This document shows positions 41,194 to 52,215 of a stretch of 64,000 nt of DNA, in pieces. The position numbers and the translations under genes were made by a program. The DNA is taken from assembly GCF_002723615.1 (NCBI RefSeq), contig NZ_KZ304955.1, positions 62,001 through 126,000 of the forward strand, given 5' to 3'. Source of the stretch: Limimaricola cinnabarinus (GTDB taxonomy: Bacteria > Pseudomonadota > Alphaproteobacteria > Rhodobacterales > Rhodobacteraceae). Positions within the stretch are counted from its first letter, which is position 1. Every line of letters starts with the position of its first letter. The notes below the pieces were generated by a model. It saw nothing but the letters and a program-made list of their open reading frames with translations, did no database searches and was not told the origin of the DNA.

Positions 41194-41577
41194 TCAGGAG
41201 GCGTCGGTGGTATCGGGGTCAGACGGCATCTCCGCCTTGCTTCCTTCCGGCTCCGCCGCCCCGGTGACACCGGCCACATAGGCGGAGATGGCCTCGATCT
41301 CGTCTTCGCCGAGATCCTCCGAGAAGGCCGGCATGATGCCGATCCCGCTGGTGACCGCCGCGCGCACCTGGTCGATGGTCGGGGCGAATTCGTCGAGGTC
41401 GGGGCCGACCGCCCCTTCCGCCTCGGCATCGGCCAGCGCGTGACAGGCGCTGCAGGGCATGAGGGCATTGTCGTTGAAGAGCGCGCGCCCGCGCTCGTGA
41501 TCCGGCGCCGCCGCGGCGCCGCCGCCCATGGCGGTCGCGAGGGCCAGGCCCATGAGCGGTGTCTTGAAGCGTGTCAT
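41194..41577 (-). CDS. Small periplasmic c-type cytochrome, likely electron acceptor of sulfite dehydrogenase
   Basis: 127 residues from the ATG at 41577 (site GGGGAA). A signal peptide ends in GGGAAAA (about residue 24). The single haem motif is CSACH at residues 42-46, with a likely axial methionine in IGIMPAFSEDLGEDEIEAIS. The acidic C-terminal tail (EPEGSKAEMPSDPDTTDAS) is unusual for a cytochrome. It follows the sulfite dehydrogenase gene by 68 bases and should pass its electrons to the oxidase chain, like SorB or SorU partners. Confidence 0.88.
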   Translation of the reverse strand: MTRFKTPLMGLALATAMGGGAAAAPDHERGRALFNDNALMPCSACHALADAEAEGAVGPDLDEFAPTIDQVRAAVTSGIGIMPAFSEDLGEDEIEAISAYVAGVTGAAEPEGSKAEMPSDPDTTDAS

Positions 41578-41645
41578 TGGATATTCCCCTGGGATTGGTG
41601 ATCCCGCCCGGCGCCCCACCGCCGGACGGGAAGATGCTTGCGCGA

Positions 41646-42827
41646 TCAGAGGACCGTCACGTCGACCGCATGGGCGCGCCAGCCATTATGGCCGTAGCCG
41701 CGCTCGTTCGGCTCGACCTCTTCGGGCTGCGCCTGCCCGCCGACGGTGGTGGCCCGGCTGGCCAGCAGGTGCGATCCCTGCCCCAGATCGGCGATCAGCA
41801 CGAAGGGACGCCAGGCATAGGGCCCCATGTCCGGCCCGAGGAACTGCGCCTCGTTCCAGCTCTGCCCGCCATCGGTGGAGACCTCGACCTTTTCGAGCGT
41901 CTCGGTGCCGCCCATCGCCACCCCGTGGATCTGCACCTTGCCGGTCTCGGCATCCTCGAGCGGGCCGGTGATCCAGGACTTCACGTTCATCTCGAACATC
42001 GAGGGCTGCGAGGGCGCGCCCTTCTCGCCCACCGGGCGGACCCGGTAGCTGGTCTGCTGGATCTTGTTGGGGGATTCCTTTTCGGTGAAGGCCAGCCGCT
42101 TGAGGTACTTCACGTTGTTGACGCCGTAATAGCCCGGGATCACCAGCCGCAGCGGTCCGCCATGGGCGAGAGGCACCGGCTGGCCGTTCATCTCCCAGGC
42201 GAGGATGGCGCGCTCCATCGCGGCCTTGGGCACCGAGCGCTCGACCTGGATCGTCTCCTTCGGCACGCCTTCGGGGATCTCCTCGCCGCCGGTGCCGGTC
42301 AGCCAGTCCATGCCATCGGCCACGCCGCCCATCGCCGCCACCACGTCGCGCACCGGCACGCCGGTCCAGACCACGTTGCCCGCGGCGCCGACCGACCACT
42401 GCGTGCCGCTGGTCTCGTGATCGAAGAAGGCGCGCCCGTTGCCCGAGCATTGCAGCACGCAGGCGACGGTCTCGACGCCGAGCGTCTTGAGCTCGCCCAA
42501 GGTGATCGCGCGCGGCTCGGCCACGCCCTCGACATTCACCTCCCAGGCATCGCGATCCGCCACGATCTCCTCGGAAGGCGCGGGCAGGTTGTTGCGGATG
42601 TAGAGATCCTCGCTCGGCGTCACCAGCCCCGAGCCGATCGCGCCGCGCCGGGTTTCCAGCGTCTGCTTGGAATGGACGATGAGGTCGTCGGCATCCTTCC
42701 AGGCCACGTAATCCGGCAGCGCCTTGCCGTCCTGCGCGACGGCCGGAAGACCGGCGGCCGCACCGATGATGCCACCGGTGCCTGCGAGCAGGAAATGGCG
42801 TCTCTTGATCCGGGGTAACAGTGTCAT
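41646..42827 (-). CDS. sorA: Sulfite dehydrogenase, molybdopterin subunit (SorA/SorT type)
   Basis: 393 residues of the sulfite-oxidase family. A Tat signal (IKRRHFLLAGTGGIIGAAAG, cleavage after AVA near 31) sends the folded molybdoenzyme to the periplasm. The molybdenum-ligating cysteine is C127 in VACVLQCSGNGR. HGGPLRLVIPGYYGVNNVKY and GVAMGGTETLEKVEVSTDGG mark the substrate and dimer domains. It oxidises sulfite to sulfate, handing electrons to the cytochrome at 41194. GGAGG seven bases upstream selects the ATG at 42827 over 42848. SoxC is an alternative in the same family, but no sox genes are present. Confidence 0.9.
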   Translation of the reverse strand: MTLLPRIKRRHFLLAGTGGIIGAAAGLPAVAQDGKALPDYVAWKDADDLIVHSKQTLETRRGAIGSGLVTPSEDLYIRNNLPAPSEEIVADRDAWEVNVEGVAEPRAITLGELKTLGVETVACVLQCSGNGRAFFDHETSGTQWSVGAAGNVVWTGVPVRDVVAAMGGVADGMDWLTGTGGEEIPEGVPKETIQVERSVPKAAMERAILAWEMNGQPVPLAHGGPLRLVIPGYYGVNNVKYLKRLAFTEKESPNKIQQTSYRVRPVGEKGAPSQPSMFEMNVKSWITGPLEDAETGKVQIHGVAMGGTETLEKVEVSTDGGQSWNEAQFLGPDMGPYAWRPFVLIADLGQGSHLLASRATTVGGQAQPEEVEPNERGYGHNGWRAHAVDVTVL

Positions 42828-42877
42828 GATCGTTCCTCCCTCCATCACTGCGCCTGTTCACGGGCAGCTTCGAAGGA

Positions 42878-43006: not shown

Positions 43007-43645
43007 TCAATCCCTCTCGCTCCCGGCCCCCGCCCCGGCGCGGCTTGCCTCGGTGGCGGGGGCATAGGTGCGAAAGGCGAAGCTTTCCAGGATCTGGAAG
43101 GTCTCGGCGGTCACGTGACGATCAGGGGCGGCCGGCCCCCCTGCGGGGGCCTGTCCCTCGCGCGTGGACAGGGTGACCGGCCCGGCCGTGGCCGTGGCCC
43201 CCGCCGCCCCGTCCAGCTTCGGCGCGCCGCCACCGAAGAGGAGCGAGACACCCTGCCATTCGAGGGCCAGCGCCACCCCGGCGGAGCGGGAGGCCGCGGC
43301 GGCGAAGGGGGCCAGAAGCAGCGGCACCGCGACCTCCTGCAGGCGCAATGCCGCCCCGGCCTTCAGCTCGTCGGCCCGGTCGCAGATCAGCGCCCCGGCG
43401 ATGATCGGGCATAGCGGCCCGCTCCGCGCGCGCCAGATCCCATCCGATGGCCGCGGCACGAGATCGGCATAGGGTGTCCCGTCATTCCGGCGCAGCAGTT
43501 CGGCCAGAAGCCAGGGGCCGGCGAACCCATTGTCGCTGAGCCAGCGCACCGCCTTGCCCGCCTCTTCGGCCAGGCCCCAGCTCATGCCGGCGCCGCGCGC
43601 CGCCTTGCGCGACAGCGCCTCGATTTCGTTGAGCGAGCAGATCAT
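43007..43645 (-). CDS. DUF3726 family protein
   Basis: 212 residues, soluble, no signal peptide. The conserved N-terminus MICSLNEIEALSRKAARGAG, then MSWGLAEEAGKAVRWLSDNG, is the DUF3726 hallmark; the middle contains GPLCPIIAGALICDRADEL and the C-terminal third is low-complexity Gly/Ala/Pro. I know of no assigned function. It is last in the minus-strand operon and overlaps the 567-residue protein by four bases (ATGA, 43642-43645), so the two are probably made in equal amounts and may form a complex. The rest of the operon suggests uptake and oxidation of a betaine-like compound. Confidence 0.8.
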   Translation of the reverse strand: MICSLNEIEALSRKAARGAGMSWGLAEEAGKAVRWLSDNGFAGPWLLAELLRRNDGTPYADLVPRPSDGIWRARSGPLCPIIAGALICDRADELKAGAALRLQEVAVPLLLAPFAAAASRSAGVALALEWQGVSLLFGGGAPKLDGAAGATATAGPVTLSTREGQAPAGGPAAPDRHVTAETFQILESFAFRTYAPATEASRAGAGAGSERD

Positions 43646-45345
43646 GGCTGCACCTCCGGCAGGGCGGGATAGATCCAGCCCGCGAACTCCATGTCGGCGA
43701 GCTCATGCGGGAAGGGCGCGTTGCGGAACATGTTGATCCGCACCCAGCGGTCGGAACGCGGATCGAAATGGCAGGCGCCGAAGAAGGAGAGCTTCGCGCG
43801 CAAAAGGTCGATGGGCAGGACATCGGCGCCGACGGTGTTGTCGCGGATCTCGGCATAGGGATGACGGGACGCGATCTGCACCCGCCGCAGGATGTGGCGA
43901 TGCTCGGGGTGGCGCAGGAGGACATCCGCGACACGGGTTTCCCCGGCTTCGCGCTTCAAGGCCTCGAACAGCAGCGCCGCGTCGCGGCCGGGCGCCAGGG
44001 GCTGCTCATAGGCCGCGACCGGCTCCAGGTGCCGTTCGCCGAGGCGCGGTTCGAGCTTTTCTGCCGAGACATACCAGGCGCGGGCCTGGGCATCGGGGCT
44101 GTCCCAGTCGATCCCGAGCGCCCAGGCATAGTCGCGCTCGAGGATGTCGCGCAGGCGCGCCACGGTCATGCCGCCCTCGATGCTGAAACCGGCGGTTTCG
44201 TCGGCGCTCATCCGCATCGGCAGATCGTCGACCAGGGCGCCATAGGGCTCCATCATCAGCGCCACGAGAAGCTCCTGCCCCTCGAGGCTCAGCGCGGTCT
44301 CGGCCCATGTATAAAGGCGATCCCAGGGCGATGCGCCCGTCAGCGCCCCGCCTGCGACATGCCTGTCCAACCGGTCGAGATCGGCCTTCAGCCCTGCGAT
44401 CCTGCCGCGCTGGACCGGGTGTTCGGACTGCCACTCATCGACATTGCGCCGCCCGCGGCGCAGCATGATCCGAAACGCCTCCGCCTCGGCGGGCAAAGCC
44501 GCCGGCAGCGCCCTGACCCGCGCCAGCGCGATCTCGCGCGTCTCGATCCAGTTGTTGAGCAGGATCGGATGGTTGAGCAGGAAGGGCGCCATGCCGAGCC
44601 CGGTCGAATTGCCGATGCCGAAGCGGCGGCGCAGGGCGGGGTCGAGGGTCACCGCGCGGGCGCCGCCCCTGACCTTCGCGAGATGCTCGACGAGGTCCAG
44701 AACGAAGCCGCGGATCAGGAAGACGGTCAGCATTTCGGCTTGGAAGGGGGCCGCGAATTCGGGGCGGTCGCAGATGCTCTCGCGGTCGGCGGCGCCGAGC
44801 TTGCCCGAGCCGTAGACGGCGGTGGTGCGCATCAGGTAGCCCACGGCGTCGATCTGCGCCCGGTCGGGCTGCGCGCCCCGGCTCAGGCACTCGACGACAT
44901 GTTCGAACAGCCGCCCCGAACGGTTGGCGCGCGACACGGTCAGCTCCGAAGAGGTGACGCGCCCGGCCTCCTGCAGCGGCACGTTGCGCGACAGGCGCTC
45001 GATGTCCGCCCCGGACGGCAGCCCGTCGAACAGGGTGAAGGTGGTGTCCCATGCGGTGGCGATCACCCGGTCAGAGCGTTGCTCGGGCGGCAGGTCATGG
45101 GCGAAGGCGACGAGGCTGTAGCTGCGCTCGGGCCCGTGCATCGTGTAGACGGCATGGCCCACGCCCTTGCCGTCGATCTCGAAGGCGCGGCGCTCGAAGC
45201 GCCAGTTCTCGGATTTCAGCCGCCGCAGCAGCACCCGCATGAAGGACAGCCGGGATTGATGGAACGAGCCCATGCGCGCGAGCCGCATCACCGTTTCGGG
45301 GGAGCGCAGCGCCACGCGGTCGGGGCTCAGCTGGTCGAGTTTCAT
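43642..45345 (-). CDS. Uncharacterised 567-residue protein of the DUF3726/BCCT operon
   Basis: 567 residues, soluble, no signal peptide or membrane segment. The ATG at 45345 has GAGGAGG seven bases upstream. I do not recognise a catalytic family. Visible features are a basic N-terminal third (RLSFMRVLLRRLKSENWRFE), a central segment FGIGNSTGLGMAPFLLNHPI followed by LLNNWIETRE that looks strongly conserved in style, and a C-terminal third with HRHILRRVQIASRHPYAEIR and FFGACHFDPRSDRWVRINMF. The coupling to DUF3726 and the BCCT and dipeptidase neighbours suggest a catabolic enzyme or assembly factor. No function is assigned. Confidence 0.8.
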   Translation of the reverse strand: MKLDQLSPDRVALRSPETVMRLARMGSFHQSRLSFMRVLLRRLKSENWRFERRAFEIDGKGVGHAVYTMHGPERSYSLVAFAHDLPPEQRSDRVIATAWDTTFTLFDGLPSGADIERLSRNVPLQEAGRVTSSELTVSRANRSGRLFEHVVECLSRGAQPDRAQIDAVGYLMRTTAVYGSGKLGAADRESICDRPEFAAPFQAEMLTVFLIRGFVLDLVEHLAKVRGGARAVTLDPALRRRFGIGNSTGLGMAPFLLNHPILLNNWIETREIALARVRALPAALPAEAEAFRIMLRRGRRNVDEWQSEHPVQRGRIAGLKADLDRLDRHVAGGALTGASPWDRLYTWAETALSLEGQELLVALMMEPYGALVDDLPMRMSADETAGFSIEGGMTVARLRDILERDYAWALGIDWDSPDAQARAWYVSAEKLEPRLGERHLEPVAAYEQPLAPGRDAALLFEALKREAGETRVADVLLRHPEHRHILRRVQIASRHPYAEIRDNTVGADVLPIDLLRAKLSFFGACHFDPRSDRWVRINMFRNAPFPHELADMEFAGWIYPALPEVQP

Positions 45346-45416
45346 CACGCGCCTCCTCGTTGCACGATACCACGTATTGATCCGGGCGGCCCCCTGCGGG
45401 CCGCCCGGCGACCTGA

Positions 45417-46976
45417 TCAGCCGCGTTCGCGACCCTTGGCGAGGGTGATCCTGAGCGCGTCCCACAGCGAGGGCAGCAGCACCAGCGAGACCGGCACCGC
45501 CGTCACCACGATGAAGCTCTGCAGCTTGCCCACACCGCCCGCGCCGAGCGAGACGAGGATGATCGCCACCAGCCCCATGCCGATCCCCCAGAACACCCGC
45601 ACCGGCATCGAGGAGCGGTCCTCGTCCGACATGGCGACCGAGATCACGTAAGTCATCGAGTCGCCGGTGGTGGCCACGAAGATCGTGGTCAGCACCAGAA
45701 ACAGCAGCGAGACGATGAAGCCCATCGGCAGCTGCTGGGTGATCGCCAGAAGCGCCGCGGGCAGGTTGAAGCCCTCGAAAGCGGTGGAGACGGAGCCCGT
45801 CTCGGCCAGCTCGAAGGCGATGCCGGAGCCGCCGATGATGGTGAACCAGAAGGTGGTGATGATCGGCGCCACCAGCGACAGCATGATCACGATCGAGCGG
45901 ATCGAGCGGCCGCGCGAAATGCGGGCGATGAACATTGCCATCAAGGGGCCGTAGCCCATGAACCAGCCCCAGAAGAACACCGTCCACCAGCCGAGCCAGC
46001 CCGGCTCACCGAACAGACCGGCTTCGCCGCGATGGAGCGCCATCTGGAAGAAATTGCCGATATAGCCGGTGAAGCCCGCGACATAGCTTTCGAAGATGAA
46101 GGCGGTCGGGCCGAACACCAGCATGAACAGCAACAGCGCGCCCGCGAGGATCACGTTGACCTTGCTCAGAAGCTGGATGCCGCGGGTGAGCCCCGACATG
46201 GCCGAGATCGTGTAGAGCGTCACCAGACCGGCGATCACCATCGCCTGCGTGGCGAAGCTGTCGGGCAGGCCGAACAGCGCGTTCAGCCCGTAGCTGACCT
46301 GTAGCCCGAGAAAGCCGATCGGCCCCACGGTGCCCGCGACGACCGCGATGATGCAGGACGCATCGGCGGCAAGTCCGATCGGCCCGCGGATCGCGCGATC
46401 TCCGAAAAGCGGGTAGAGCAGCGTGCGCGGCGCCAGAGGCAGGCCCTTTTCATAGTGGTAATGCATCAGCATCACGGTCGAGAGCGCGCCCAGGATCGCC
46501 CAGGCGAGAAAGCCCCAATGCATGAAGCTCTGCGCCAGCGCCGGGGCCACGGCCGCAGGCGTGCCGGCCTCGGCGCCGAACAGAGGCGGCGAGGACAGGA
46601 AATGCGCCATCGGCTCGCCCGCGGCCCAGAACACGCCGCCGCCCGCCAGCAGCGTGCACATGATCATCGCGCCCCACTGGAACACCGAGAATTCGGGCCG
46701 CGCGAGGCCGCCCATGATCGCCCGCCCGCCGGGCAGCACGACGAGGACAAGGCCGATCAGGAAGGTCGCCAGCAGGAGTAACTGCCAGTAGAGGCCGAAA
46801 TACCTGGCCGAAAAGGCGAAGCTCGCATCCACCATCGACGAGAGCAGCTCCAGATCGACGAGCGCGATCAGGCAGAAGAGGGCGATGAAGCCGCCGGTGA
46901 TGGCGAAGAGCGGCTTGTTGATATGGCCGGGGTCGGGCGTATCCGCCGCCGCCGGGCTCTGTGTCTGGTCCGTCAT
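45417..46976 (-). CDS. BCCT-family transporter (betaine/carnitine/choline type)
   Basis: 519 residues with about twelve membrane helices. The family signature region reads GWWTVFFWGWFMGYGPLMAM, ending FIARISRGRSIR, and QWGAMIMCTLLAGGGVFWAA precedes it. BCCT proteins import quaternary ammonium or sulfonium compounds using sodium or proton gradients. The short C-terminal tail argues for a nutrient transporter rather than an osmosensor. It lies between the dipeptidase gene (47020) and the uncharacterised protein (45345), all on the minus strand, and should supply the operon's substrate. The specific ligand is unknown. Confidence 0.92.
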   Translation of the reverse strand: MTDQTQSPAAADTPDPGHINKPLFAITGGFIALFCLIALVDLELLSSMVDASFAFSARYFGLYWQLLLLATFLIGLVLVVLPGGRAIMGGLARPEFSVFQWGAMIMCTLLAGGGVFWAAGEPMAHFLSSPPLFGAEAGTPAAVAPALAQSFMHWGFLAWAILGALSTVMLMHYHYEKGLPLAPRTLLYPLFGDRAIRGPIGLAADASCIIAVVAGTVGPIGFLGLQVSYGLNALFGLPDSFATQAMVIAGLVTLYTISAMSGLTRGIQLLSKVNVILAGALLLFMLVFGPTAFIFESYVAGFTGYIGNFFQMALHRGEAGLFGEPGWLGWWTVFFWGWFMGYGPLMAMFIARISRGRSIRSIVIMLSLVAPIITTFWFTIIGGSGIAFELAETGSVSTAFEGFNLPAALLAITQQLPMGFIVSLLFLVLTTIFVATTGDSMTYVISVAMSDEDRSSMPVRVFWGIGMGLVAIILVSLGAGGVGKLQSFIVVTAVPVSLVLLPSLWDALRITLAKGRERG

Positions 46977-47019: not shown

Positions 47020-48027
47020 CTACTCGGCCGCCGCCCTCAGCCCCGCCTCCTCCGCGGCGCCGAAGTTCTTGTCGAAGAAGCGCAGCCAGTTCTCTCCCAT
47101 GATCCCGGCCACCTCCCTTTGGTCGAAGCCCACGGCGCGCAGCCCGGCCTCGATGTTGGAGAAATCCCTGTTATCCGCGAACCATTCCGGCATGTCGGGA
47201 AAGCCGGGTGCGGCGGCCGAGCCTTCGCCGTAATCGACCCGCTTGGTCCAGCGGCCCATGCGCATCCAGTCGACCACGCTGTCGGGGTGGTCCTGGCACA
47301 GATCCGAACCGATCCCGAGGCTCTGCGCCCCCACCATCTCGGCGCTGCGCGCGACCATCTCGCAGAAGCTTTCGAGCGTGCAGCCGCCCTTGTCCTTGAG
47401 GTGATGCGGGTAGAGCGAGAAGCCGAGCATGCCGCCCGTTTCGGCCAGCGCCCGGATCACCGCGTCGCTCTTGTTGCGCCGCGCGGGCGCCCAGAAGGCC
47501 GGGTTGGCATGGGTGATGGCGATGGGCCGCGCGGAGTGCTCGATCGCCTCCAGCGTCGAGCGTTCGGCGGAATGGCTCATGTCGACGACGAGGCCGACGC
47601 GGTTCATCTCCTCGATCACCTCGCGGCCCATGCGGGTGAGGCCGGGATCTTCGGCCTCGTAGCAGCCCGTCGCCAGCAGCGACTGGTTGTTGTAGCTCAG
47701 CTGCATGAAGCGCGCGCCAAGCGTGTGGAGGACCTCGACGAGGCCGATGTCGTCCTCGATCGGCGAGGGGTTCTGGAAGCCGAAGAAGATCGCGGTGCGC
47801 CCTTCGGCCTTCGCACGGCGCACGTCGCAGCCGGTCCGGCCCTGGAAGATCAGATCCGGGAACCGCTCGAACCGGCGGTTCCAGGCCTCGATGTTGAGCA
47901 CCGTCTCGCGGAAGTTCTCGTGATAGGCGATGGTGACATGGACCGCGTCCACGCCCCCCTCGCGCATCTGGCGGAAGATCTTTTCCGACCAGTTGGCGTA
48001 TTGCAGGCCATCGATCCTGTAGGTCAC
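47020..48027 (-). CDS. M19 (renal dipeptidase) family protein with incomplete metal site
   Basis: 335 residues of the membrane-dipeptidase TIM-barrel family, cytoplasmic. Retained are DMSHSAERS and ITHANPAFWAPARRNKSD (second metal site and arginine) and LGIGSDLCQDHP. Lost are the HxD motif (DGLQYANW replaces DGHNDLP) and the bridging glutamate region (IFFGFQNPSP replaces IEGG). A similar subgroup member is encoded beside the dimethylglycine demethylase genes of Pseudomonas, linking it to N-methyl compound breakdown. It overlaps the aldehyde dehydrogenase by four bases. Likely a C-N hydrolase on a non-peptide substrate (inference). Confidence 0.87.
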   Translation of the reverse strand: MTYRIDGLQYANWSEKIFRQMREGGVDAVHVTIAYHENFRETVLNIEAWNRRFERFPDLIFQGRTGCDVRRAKAEGRTAIFFGFQNPSPIEDDIGLVEVLHTLGARFMQLSYNNQSLLATGCYEAEDPGLTRMGREVIEEMNRVGLVVDMSHSAERSTLEAIEHSARPIAITHANPAFWAPARRNKSDAVIRALAETGGMLGFSLYPHHLKDKGGCTLESFCEMVARSAEMVGAQSLGIGSDLCQDHPDSVVDWMRMGRWTKRVDYGEGSAAAPGFPDMPEWFADNRDFSNIEAGLRAVGFDQREVAGIMGENWLRFFDKNFGAAEEAGLRAAAE

Positions 48028-49493
48028 GCCAGCTCCTCCGGCGTGCCGGCCGCGATATAGGCGGTCTTGACGGTGGTGTAGAACTCGGCCGCATAAGAGC
48101 CCTGCTCGCGCGGGCCGTAGGAGGAATTGCCGCGCCCGCCGAAGGGCACGTGGTAGTCGGTCCCGGCGGTCGGCAGGTTGACCATGACGCAGCCCGTGCG
48201 CGCGTTGCGCCGGAAATGCGTGGCACGCGCGATGGAGCGGGTGACGATGCCCGAGGTCAGGCCGAACTCGGTGTCGTTCACCACGTCCAGCGCCTCGGCA
48301 TAGGAGCCGACCTTGATGACGCAGGCGATGGGGGCGAACATTTCTTCGCGGTTGATCCGCATGGCGTTCGTGGTGCCGGTGAAGACGGCGGGCGACATGT
48401 AATGGCCTTCGGTGGCAAGGCTGAGGCGTTCGCCGCCGCAGGCCAGCGTCGCCCCTTCGGATTTGCCCAGCTCGATGTAATCGAGATTGGCCTTGAGCTG
48501 CTCCTCGCTGACGACGGGGCCGATCTGCGTGCCCTCCTCCAGCGCATGGCCGACCTTCATCGCCTTGGCACCCGCGACCAGCTTCTCGACGAATGCGTCA
48601 TGCACGGCCTCGTGCACCACCAGCCGCGAGGAGGCGGTGCATTTCTGGCCGGAGCCGCCGAAGGCACCGCCGAGCGCGAGGCTGACGGCAAGGTCGAGAT
48701 CGGCGTCGTCCATCACCGCGAGCGCGTTCTTCGAGCCCATCTCCATCTGGATCTTGGTGAAGTTCTCGACCGCCGCGCGGGCGATGCCGCGCCCGACGGG
48801 GACCGAGCCGGTAAAGGAGATGGCGTCGAGCGTGGGGCTCTCGACCAGCTTCTGGCCGATTTCGCGCCCCGCCCCCATGACGAGGTTGAACAGCCCCTCG
48901 GGGATGTCCTGGCGGCTGATGATCTCGGTCAGCGCCACGGCCGAGGCGGGGGTGACATTGGCGGGCTTCCAGATCACCGCATTGCCGAAGGCCAGCGCGG
49001 GGGCGATCTTCCAGCTCGCGGTCGCGGTCGGGAAATTCCACGGGCTGATGACCGCGACGACGCCCACCGGCTCGCGCCGCACGTCGATCTCGACGCCCGC
49101 GCGCACGGAGTCGGCGGTGTCGCCGATCTGGCGCAGGCATTCGGCGGCGTAATAGGTGAAGAACTGGCCTGCGCGGTATATCTCGCCCTTGCCCTCCGCG
49201 AGCGGCTTGCCCTCCTCGCGCGACAGCAGTTCGCCCAGCTCGGCGGCGCGGGCCATCATCTCGGTGCCGATCGCCATCAGCACGTCATGGCGCCGCTCGG
49301 GGCCATGGCCCGCCCAGATCGCCTGCGCCCGCTTCGCCGCCGCCAAAGCGTCGTCGAGCTGCGCGGCGCTGGCCTGCGCGTAGCGGCCCACCAGCTCGGA
49401 CAGGTCCGAGGGGTTGCGGTTCTCGATCTCGCCGGCCCCGGCAACCCAGGCCCCTGCGATGTAATTGCGGTTGAGGTCGGTCATGGCGTTCAT
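48024..49493 (-). CDS. NAD(P)-dependent aldehyde dehydrogenase
   Basis: 489 residues, full length. Substrate/cofactor motifs are VISPWNFPTATASWKIAPAL, FTGSVPVGRGIARAA, the general base in QMEMGSKNALAVMDD and the catalytic cysteine in GGSGQKCTASSRLVV. The start at 49493 has AGGAG eight bases upstream; another ATG nine bases on is possible. It resembles ketoglutaric-semialdehyde and related dehydrogenases. As first gene of the 43007-49493 operon it should oxidise an aldehyde made from the BCCT substrate, but the substrate is not determined. Inverted repeats upstream (49561-49605) are likely regulatory. Confidence 0.9.
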   Translation of the reverse strand: MNAMTDLNRNYIAGAWVAGAGEIENRNPSDLSELVGRYAQASAAQLDDALAAAKRAQAIWAGHGPERRHDVLMAIGTEMMARAAELGELLSREEGKPLAEGKGEIYRAGQFFTYYAAECLRQIGDTADSVRAGVEIDVRREPVGVVAVISPWNFPTATASWKIAPALAFGNAVIWKPANVTPASAVALTEIISRQDIPEGLFNLVMGAGREIGQKLVESPTLDAISFTGSVPVGRGIARAAVENFTKIQMEMGSKNALAVMDDADLDLAVSLALGGAFGGSGQKCTASSRLVVHEAVHDAFVEKLVAGAKAMKVGHALEEGTQIGPVVSEEQLKANLDYIELGKSEGATLACGGERLSLATEGHYMSPAVFTGTTNAMRINREEMFAPIACVIKVGSYAEALDVVNDTEFGLTSGIVTRSIARATHFRRNARTGCVMVNLPTAGTDYHVPFGGRGNSSYGPREQGSYAAEFYTTVKTAYIAAGTPEELA

Positions 49494-49560
49494 GCGCTGT
49501 CTCCTGTCTGGACCGGGCGTCCCGGACGTGATTGCAGACAGTAGGCCCGACCGAAGCCGT

Positions 49561-49605
49561 TCAATCAAACTCGATTACATTGAATCCATTTCAGCAAAGC
49601 TGAAG
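49561..49605. promoter_or_regulatory. Two inverted repeats upstream of the aldehyde dehydrogenase operon
   Basis: TTCAAT (49561-49566) with ATTGAA (49580-49585), spacer 13; and TTCAGC-AAA-GCTGAA (49591-49605), a perfect 6+3+6 palindrome ending at the LysR stop codon. Both use TTCA/TGAA half-sites, like those in the lysR-rid gap at 50492-50518. They are good candidates for LysR-regulator binding upstream of 49493. The second could also fold as a weak terminator of lysR. Confidence 0.6.
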
Positions 49606-50490
49606 TCAGACTGTATCGCGCAGATCCGCCGTCTCTTTCTCGAGCACGCGCAGAAAGGCGCGCGCTGCCGGTGGCAGCAGGCGGCGCGGCTGCGAGACGA
49701 GGTAGAGATGCCGCCGTGCCTCGCTTTCGGCGAGCGGGAGAAAGGCGAGCCCTTCATCGTCCAGCGGCACGGCGCGGCGGGGCAGCAGCGTCAGCCCGAC
49801 GCCGCCGCGGACCAGCGCCAGCAGCGAGGCGGTATTGGGCACCGACATCGGAGCGGCGTCGAGGATCGGGGCGAAGGCGGGGTCCTCGATCAGCCGGCAC
49901 AGCCCGTTGGCGATGAAGTCGCGCCCGGCAAGATCGCGCCAGCCGACCGCATCGCCGCGCGAAGCGAGCACGTCGCCCGGCGCGCAGACCACCCCGAAAG
50001 GGTCCGAGAACAGCAGCTTGCGCTCGAAACCGGCCCCCGCCGCGATGCTGGCGATGCCGATATCGGCGCGCTCGGCTTCAAGCTCGCGCTGCACCGAGGC
50101 GCTGTCCATGTCGCGCATGTCGATCCGCACCTTCGGATGGTCGCGGCGAAAGCGGCGGATCACCGGCGGCAGTATCGCCGTCGCGACCGAGGGCGTGACC
50201 GCCAGCCGCACCTGCCCCTCCTCGGCACGCGACAGCCCCTCGATCGCCGCGACCGTGCGGCCGAAATGCTCGACCTCGCGCCTTGCCTCGCCATAGACCA
50301 TCTCGCCCAAGGGCGTCAGCCGCGACTTCCGCGCCGTCTCGAACAGGGCGGCGCCGACATGCTCCTCGAATTGCTTGAGCATCATGGAGACGGCCGAAGG
50401 GGTGCGGCCAAGCTGGCTGGCGGCCTCGTTCAGGCTGCCCTGTTGCACCACCGCGCAGAAGCAGCGCAGCATTTCGATCTTGATCGCCAA
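49606..50490 (-). CDS. LysR-family regulator of the BCCT/dipeptidase operon
   Basis: 294 residues. The N-terminal winged helix reads EMLRCFCAVVQQGSLNEAAS, QLGRTPSAVSMMLKQFEEHV; the effector domain from about 90 includes RLAVTPSVATAILPPVIRRF. It is immediately upstream of the aldehyde dehydrogenase operon on the same strand (112-base gap) and divergent from the Rid gene at 50589. Shared TTCA/TGAA repeats in both gaps suggest it controls both and itself. The inducer is unknown. Confidence 0.9.
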   Translation of the reverse strand: MAIKIEMLRCFCAVVQQGSLNEAASQLGRTPSAVSMMLKQFEEHVGAALFETARKSRLTPLGEMVYGEARREVEHFGRTVAAIEGLSRAEEGQVRLAVTPSVATAILPPVIRRFRRDHPKVRIDMRDMDSASVQRELEAERADIGIASIAAGAGFERKLLFSDPFGVVCAPGDVLASRGDAVGWRDLAGRDFIANGLCRLIEDPAFAPILDAAPMSVPNTASLLALVRGGVGLTLLPRRAVPLDDEGLAFLPLAESEARRHLYLVSQPRRLLPPAARAFLRVLEKETADLRDTV

Positions 50491-50518: not shown

Positions 50519-50588
50519 TAATGAACTTTGCCTGAAGCCGCGAAGGCTGTCTACAAGGCGGGTGGATACCAATCACAAGGAGCGGCTC

Positions 50589-50945
50589 ATGACCGGCACC
50601 CTCAGGAAAATCGGCGGCTCGGCCCGCTTCTCCGCGATCGCGGTCCATAACGGGCAGGTGCATCTCGCCGGGCAGGTGTCGCAGCTCAAGGATGGCGACA
50701 TCGAGGCGCAGTCGCGCGACGTCTTCGCCAAGGTCGACGCGCTTCTCACGGAGGCGGGGTCGAGCCGCGAGGACCTGATCTCGGTGCAGATCTGGCTTGC
50801 CGACATGGCCGATTATGCCGGCATGAACGCGGTCTGGGACGAATGGGTCTCGGGCGTCACGCCGCCGACGCGGGTCTGCGTCGAGGCGCGCATGGCGCAG
50901 CCGCATTACCGCGTCGAGGTGCTGGCCATCGCGGCGGCGCGCTGA
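50589..50945 (+). CDS. RidA/YjgF family protein
   Basis: 118 residues from the ATG at 50589, which follows AAGGAG. The family elements are LRKIGGSARFSAIAVHNGQV, LAGQVSQLKDGDIEAQSRDV and a C-terminal PTRVCVEARMAQPHYRVEVL containing the arginine and acidic region used to bind ketoacids or imines. Rid proteins hydrolyse reactive enamines/imines formed by PLP enzymes or amine oxidation. Divergent placement from the LysR gene links it to the 43007-49493 operon, where imine intermediates would be expected if an amine is being oxidised (inference). Confidence 0.87.
   Translation: MTGTLRKIGGSARFSAIAVHNGQVHLAGQVSQLKDGDIEAQSRDVFAKVDALLTEAGSSREDLISVQIWLADMADYAGMNAVWDEWVSGVTPPTRVCVEARMAQPHYRVEVLAIAAAR

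Positions 50946-51021: not shown

Positions 51022-52215
<1,194 letters not shown>

Follow-up and report, generated by a model that had tools for sequence, protein, structure and literature searches.

A conserved two-gene unit in a putative betaine-catabolic operon

The analyzed window comprises 64,000 nucleotides of Limimaricola cinnabarinus (contig NZ_KZ304955.1, positions 62,001 to 126,000), in which two neighboring minus-strand genes encode P567, a 567-residue protein of an unnamed family (43642..45345), and a 212-residue DUF3726 protein (PF12525; 43007..43645). We lean toward the interpretation that these proteins together form one two-subunit enzyme, encoded in an operon for the breakdown of homarine or of an N-methyl ring betaine very similar to it. 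Homarine is N-methylpicolinate (N-methylpyridinium-2-carboxylate), which carries its carboxylate at C2. P567 would be the catalytic subunit; DUF3726 would be its partner, a dehydrogenase fold that has been remodelled and has a conserved C-terminal tail that may extend into P567. Gene pairing gives good support to a putative complex of the two. The function of P567 would lie within the breakdown of N-methyl betaines, with homarine the likeliest of these; that the two proteins bind each other, which compound is used and how it is converted at each stage are what we infer.

An earlier sequence-only reading of this DNA had placed a 567-residue protein at 43642-45345 without giving its strand; these positions hold an unbroken frame of that length on the minus strand, and the ATGA overlap described between P567 and DUF3726 was confirmed at 43642-43645, the positions that the two genes share. 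The mechanical open reading frame (ORF) over the gene has its start at a distant upstream GTG (45987; 781 residues), and the start was placed at the ATG at 45345 because the closest homologues begin there and the gene of the betaine/carnitine/choline transporter (BCCT) ends at 45417. The same DNA is covered by a plus-strand ORF of 648 residues (43705-45651), which was dismissed as a shadow frame because conservation follows the minus frame of P567. The GC-rich DNA and this opposite ORF would also suit the idea that P567 itself is a spurious or non-coding shadow or an annotation artefact. This idea is refuted by conservation and retains practically no credence: relatives occur in 38 other genomes of a class sample of 289 and at 21 loci of a separate scan of GTDB contigs, and they share 29-90% identity in the alignment. 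The P567 gene is real.

The pairing of the two genes proved stronger than the overlap alone had suggested. The partner passes the PF12525 model (E 1.1e-23; 83.3 bits against a gathering cut-off of 22.1), and whereas P567 matches were found in 39 of the 289 class genomes, the source genome included, PF12525 was detected in 32 of the 289, with all 32 places lying directly beside P567 when coordinates were compared. Seven of the 39 P567 genomes (G057, G074, G077, G084, G088, G122, and G258) had no PF12525 call, and some of these represent fragments, decayed copies or divergent copies: the longest P567 match of G077 contains 14 stops, the match of G088 is cut at a contig end, and in G258 the ORF downstream of P567 keeps the same kind of C-terminal tail despite the missing call. 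This tail is conserved in DUF3726 in the form TYAPATEESR..GAGAG..DND. Among the ORFs downstream of P567, 49 of 58 retain the S[R/Q]..[G/N]AG part and 25 of 58 the DND end; at another locus, L038, the contig ended too soon.

Conserved neighbors and linkage to Mgd-type genes

The operon reads, in the 5' to 3' direction, LysR, aldehyde dehydrogenase (ALDH), M19 dipeptidase, BCCT, P567, and DUF3726, all on the minus strand. The LysR regulator (49606..50490) stands at its head, followed by ALDH (48024..49568), whose best NCBIfam scores, below cut-off, were to 2,5-dioxovalerate/alpha-ketoglutaric semialdehyde dehydrogenases, by an M19 "membrane dipeptidase" family metallohydrolase (47020..48027; PF01244), and by the BCCT transporter (45417..46976; PF02028, E 5.3e-148). 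A guided tblastn search across 46 wide loci, which were hand-counted, include one place twice and are in some cases cut by contig ends, revealed M19 as the commonest neighbor of P567 (39 loci), followed by DUF3726 (32), ALDH at 54% identity or more (22), Ldh_2 (14), BCCT at 48% or more (10), and OpuAC (7). Automatic clustering of 41 wide-flank loci, which loses genes through greedy ORF choice, recovered P567 in 38, M19 in 28, ALDH in 19, DUF3726 in 15, and LysR and Ldh_2 in 11 each. The transporter beside P567 is of the BCCT type in several Rhodobacterales and an OpuAC-type glycine-betaine ABC transporter in others, two 1.4-Mb genomes (G030 and G259) among them; annotated BCCT genes occur in the sets of Ruegeria TM1040 and Phaeobacter inhibens, and an annotated glycine-betaine ABC transporter in Aminobacter. 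Different proteins thus serve as transporter, yet they are of betaine type, which gives an indication of the substrate.

The genes of Ruegeria TM1040 and Phaeobacter inhibens DSM 17395 run in the order sarcosine-oxidase beta, delta, alpha, and gamma, AraC, LysR, ALDH, M19, BCCT, P567, and DUF3726. DUF3726 is followed in TM1040 by Ldh_2 and in P. inhibens by an interrupted Ldh_2 match, the two pieces of which lie outside the listed annotation (L081, 14393-15396, plus strand) and the gene may be frameshifted. The TM1040 beta and alpha subunits pass the soxB and soxA cut-offs (TIGR01373, 677 bits; TIGR01372, 1356.5 bits), and we read this neighbor as Mgd rather than Sox because of the adjoining AraC, and on that ground only: in R. 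pomeroyi, the AraC-type gene tmaR adjoins mgdABCD (PMC13390433). The same source describes homarine as a ubiquitous marine metabolite and credits the participation of Mgd in homarine catabolism to Ferrer-Gonzalez et al. 2026, and R. pomeroyi draws down homarine fast (PMC12817926). The P567 gene set was read as homarine-catabolic because it adjoins an mgdABCD-like operon and Mgd is reported in homarine catabolism. Genes of the gmaS/mgs type beside Mgd would have confirmed its identity, but no glutamine or glutamate synthase was present among the three neighbors examined in locus L086 or the two in L088.

In G065, G207, and G161, matches to MgdA, MgdB, and MgdC occur no more than 10 kb from P567, and in G065 they are joined by MgdD and AraC. 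As a separate observation, G065 encodes a SABATH-type methyltransferase (PF03492, Methyltransf_7; L091, 4274-5377, plus strand) immediately after M19-P567-DUF3726-Ldh_2 and before AraC-Mgd; this enzyme may produce or regenerate a substrate that is methylated at N or O. At the level of whole genomes, an MgdA-like gene (E<=1e-60) was found in 36 of 39 P567 genomes versus 77 of 250 others (Fisher p 1.2e-13) and, among the matches listed, one of at least 60% identity in 25 of 39 versus 30 of 250 (Fisher p 1.2e-11), in tests that leave kinship and genome size uncorrected, which detracts from their support for homarine. Mgd-type matches at E<=1e-40 were also detected in 19 of the 21 genomes of the GTDB scan, 13 of them reaching 60% identity or more. 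The homarine genes of Ferrer-Gonzalez and colleagues are reportedly named homABCDER; the count in the operon studied here is also five structural genes and a regulator.

Proposed route of degradation

In the route that we propose, the BCCT transporter, or the OpuAC-type ABC transporter in other species, would import the betaine, and P567-DUF3726, helped by the full-length Ldh_2 reductase where one is present, would dearomatise and open the ring to N-formyl N-methylglutamate semialdehyde. The conversion to N-methylglutamate requires that C6 be removed and C5 turned into a carboxylate, and a cut between C5 and C6 would yield this semialdehyde: ALDH would oxidise the aldehyde, and the M19 metallohydrolase would remove the N-formyl group. 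MgdABCD, or another flavin demethylase in the source genome, would then convert N-methylglutamate to glutamate and formaldehyde; the latter could be removed by the glutathione-dependent formaldehyde dehydrogenase encoded nearby. The scheme would employ every conserved gene and leaves P567-DUF3726 for the ring-attacking step.

A bolder form of this proposal, which we put forward tentatively and consider rather unlikely as a whole, is that P567-DUF3726 constitutes a new class of pyridinium-ring-opening enzyme, spread through Alphaproteobacteria and beyond, in which an unseen catalytic fold would be joined by a pseudo-dehydrogenase subunit with no active site of its own that lends its GAGAG..DND tail to the P567 active site. 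If the favored homarine reading holds, the step that breaks the N-methylpyridinium ring would belong to a two-gene enzyme whose catalytic protein has no relative found in Pfam, NCBIfam or the PDB and whose other subunit is a dehydrogenase fold turned partner, and the gene pair would serve as a marker for a carbon and nitrogen flux.

A shortened Ldh_2-type fold in the DUF3726 model

The model of DUF3726 built from 32 sequences reached a predicted local distance difference test score (pLDDT) of 91.2 and a predicted template modeling score (pTM) of 0.86, with the last ~20 residues at 61-64. Its Foldseek ranks 1-27 were all type-2 malate/lactate dehydrogenase kin, with a best E of 5.6e-4 and two matches at E<=0.001, and included 1wtj, the structure of delta1-piperideine-2-carboxylate reductase, an enzyme of the PF02615 (Ldh_2) family; this match counts in favor of the homarine reading. 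A structural comparison with VIA returned Z 14.1 to YiaK (1nxu) over 184 of the 212 residues at a root-mean-square deviation of 3.4, and the top 15 entries were all of the type-2 malate/lactate dehydrogenase kind (Z at least 11.3), the next entry scoring 4.0. DUF3726 thus models as a shortened Ldh_2-type dehydrogenase fold.

At the sequence level, PF02615 was absent from the families matched at E<=1 by the 32 DUF3726 members, and hhalign of DUF3726 against 11 Ldh_2 neighbors gave a probability of 19% and an E of 0.0012 over the first 56 residues. The histidine of the SHG motif is the catalytic histidine of Ldh_2; it had no histidine counterpart in the DUF3726 of the window by hhalign or by MAFFT, which place the motif differently, and no histidine occurs among the invariant or near-invariant DUF3726 columns. 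Because both the PF02615 match and the catalytic histidine are missing, DUF3726 is not filed as an active Ldh_2 member. A search for DUF3726 by name in literature outside subscription papers found no mention.

Conservation and predicted structure of P567

Conservation in P567 was counted over an alignment of 47 rows, to which the figures for the two islands and the arginines refer. The two islands quoted in the sequence-only reading both occur in the translation and are conserved. In the first, G243, G245, N246, G251, and P260 are invariant and T248, G249, and L250 are kept at 90% or more; in the second, F522, G523, and R536 are invariant and F527, D528, P529, S531, D532, and W534 reach the same level. 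Nine arginines (R93, R129, R145, R173, R212, R434, R488, R516, and R536) are invariant, which would fit a carboxylate substrate and proves nothing. A metal enzyme appears a poor candidate: in a tally of positions where P567 itself has histidine or cysteine, columns in which only other rows have them being unlisted, just His259 (98%) and His221 (85%) exceed 75%, and no cysteine is conserved above 70%.

Searches with P567 found no family at E<=0.01 in either Pfam-A or NCBIfam and, at E<=1, no sequence in the PDB; a scan of the 47 members against the families returned just isolated weak matches. The AlphaFold2 model built from the 47 sequences is confident overall (mean pLDDT 88.6; pTM 0.91). A profile search against the PDB reached at best E 0.11, with V-ATPase subunit C and tropomyosin as weak rows; Foldseek of the model against the PDB gave at best E 0.082 and probability 0.08, with MutS as a weak row; VIA listed nothing at Z 5 or above (best 4.3), in a mixed list with START-like proteins and red chlorophyll catabolite reductase; and the viral library gave at best E 1.1. 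These matches are all weak and scattered, and none of the named proteins was accepted as a relative. For this whole-chain model, such matches do not show the fold to be new, because the domains were not folded apart. The interior blocks of low pLDDT are more conserved (0.73 versus 0.60, p = 0.056), and such conserved, poorly modeled loops are only suggestive of a site that the partner completes.

The orphan label given to P567 in the sequence-only reading holds: neither profile search nor structure prediction of the protein alone produced a confident match to a known enzyme, and co-occurrence with DUF3726, the absence of which would also have spoken against that reading, is present. That reading stands insofar as it described a large orphan family coupled to DUF3726, and its placement of P567 in a catabolic operon is likewise supported; it is refined by the fold modeled for DUF3726 and by the role proposed here.

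Points against homarine and alternative explanations

Several observations weigh against homarine as the substrate in L. cinnabarinus itself. At E<=1e-60 nothing MgdA-like was found in the source genome, where the highest soxB-type score was 101 bits against a cut-off of 529; a search of this genome for PF04267 (SoxD) found no match anywhere, controls included, and so is uninformative. For Ldh_2, the closest match there is a paralogue of 36% identity, located elsewhere and unlinked to the operon. Among the closest relatives, L002, L003, and L005 have soxB-type matches of just 48-50%; a fourth, L004, has one of 67%. The AraC of TM1040 has its best NCBIfam score, below cut-off, to GbdR. Outside subscription papers, homarine catabolism and homABCDER were found in the literature as a citation only. 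Two fused dimethylglycine dehydrogenase-like proteins are encoded in the source genome (L072 and L073), and our guess is that these could replace Mgd there; in L060 and L062, fusions of this sort occur no more than ~4 kb from P567.

The absence of Mgd there would equally suit the same two-subunit enzyme and operon logic acting on another N-methylated zwitterion, such as trigonelline or a proline-type betaine, a reading that we judge improbable without dismissing it. Betaine-type transporters cannot tell homarine from other betaines, and a more distant relative in S. meliloti (31%) adjoins a different kind of ABC transporter (SBP_bac_8, TOBE_2), so that the wider P567 family may serve more than one substrate. 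The Mgd-type genes and AraC that adjoin the operon in two Roseobacteraceae nevertheless fit N-methylglutamate as the end product, in favor of homarine. P567-DUF3726 might instead assist M19, ALDH or Ldh_2 as an accessory unit that carries the substrate, activates the enzyme or aids its assembly. P567 showed no recognisable motif for binding a metal, flavin or NAD, which counts against a catalytic role as well as for an accessory one, and the lack of the Ldh_2 histidine in DUF3726 agrees with the latter. So does G057, in which the genes of AraC, MgdABCD, Ldh_2, M19 (76%), and a DctM-type transporter lie together (L089, 8451-19048) but lack an adjacent P567, the relative in this genome (31-32%) sitting on another contig; this arrangement likewise speaks against our preferred assignment. 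Yet P567 is a large protein in which 35 positions are invariant across the 47 rows, and the window operon offers no other obvious first enzyme, and we regard an accessory function as unlikely, more so than a different betaine. A catalytic P567-DUF3726 pair acting on homarine or a very close betaine remains the interpretation that we favor.

Other genes of the window and distribution of P567

Divergent from the operon, a RidA-like gene (50562..50945, plus strand) is kept in the closest relatives (L002-L005, L009, and L053), with a 44% match in L054. Beyond it, on the minus strand, lies an S-(hydroxymethyl)glutathione (formaldehyde) dehydrogenase gene (51022..52149; TIGR02818, 749 bits, above cut-off), the nearness of which to the operon may be coincidental. 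Directly downstream of DUF3726 is a SorT/SorU-type sulfite dehydrogenase pair (41194-42848), SorT scoring above its NCBIfam cut-off and SorU just below; no SorT match was found beside P567 in the other loci among L002-L051.

The 21 loci of the GTDB scan, which overlap the class sample by at least one place (L016 = G120), include gammaproteobacterial titles, and P567 reaches genomes of 1.2-1.4 Mb. Plasmid records with a P567 match number 168, Ruegeria TM1040, Phaeobacter, Aminobacter, and Caballeronia among them; more distant plasmid-borne relatives occur in Sinorhizobium (~31%) and in the archaeon Natrinema versiforme (33%). Among the plasmid matches listed, the features named under the match are hypothetical proteins, with DUF3726 as well in one record. 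On the N. versiforme plasmid (L084, 12001-14657), a 317-residue protein adjoins the P567 relative and a BCCT transporter lies nearby. A phage origin was considered and set aside, no viral contig having matched six peptide patterns. In L004, a record titled Nocardioides marinus, P567 is 87% identical to that of the window and has the same neighbors; this is possibly a mislabelled or contaminated Rhodobacterales contig.

Comparison with known systems

The DUF3726 model shares its fold with Ldh_2 proteins (PF02615) such as YiaK, ureidoglycolate dehydrogenase, and delta1-piperideine-2-carboxylate reductase; DUF3726 differs in being ~120-130 residues shorter, in lacking the PF02615 match and the SHG histidine, and in having its own GAGAG..DND tail. 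In trigonelline catabolism (tgnABCDE), another pyridinium betaine is degraded through ring opening by a flavin monooxygenase pair, followed by an aldehyde dehydrogenase and a hydrolytic step, whereas the proteins of the window operon include no such monooxygenase gene product. The homarine pathway of Ferrer-Gonzalez et al. 2026, known here through PMC13390433, is reported to involve Mgd, and in Ruegeria TM1040 and Phaeobacter inhibens Mgd-type genes and AraC lie next to the P567 operon; the source genome has no Mgd. The copy in the window is not filed as a tested member of the published pathway because Mgd is missing from the source genome, and our claim is that its P567 operon works like a member of such a pathway. 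Finally, the accessible text on the R. pomeroyi trimethylamine/methylamine cluster (tmaR, mgdABCD; PMC13390433) does not mention P567, DUF3726 or M19, and the cluster resembles the P567 sets of TM1040 and P. inhibens in having an AraC-type regulator next to mgd.

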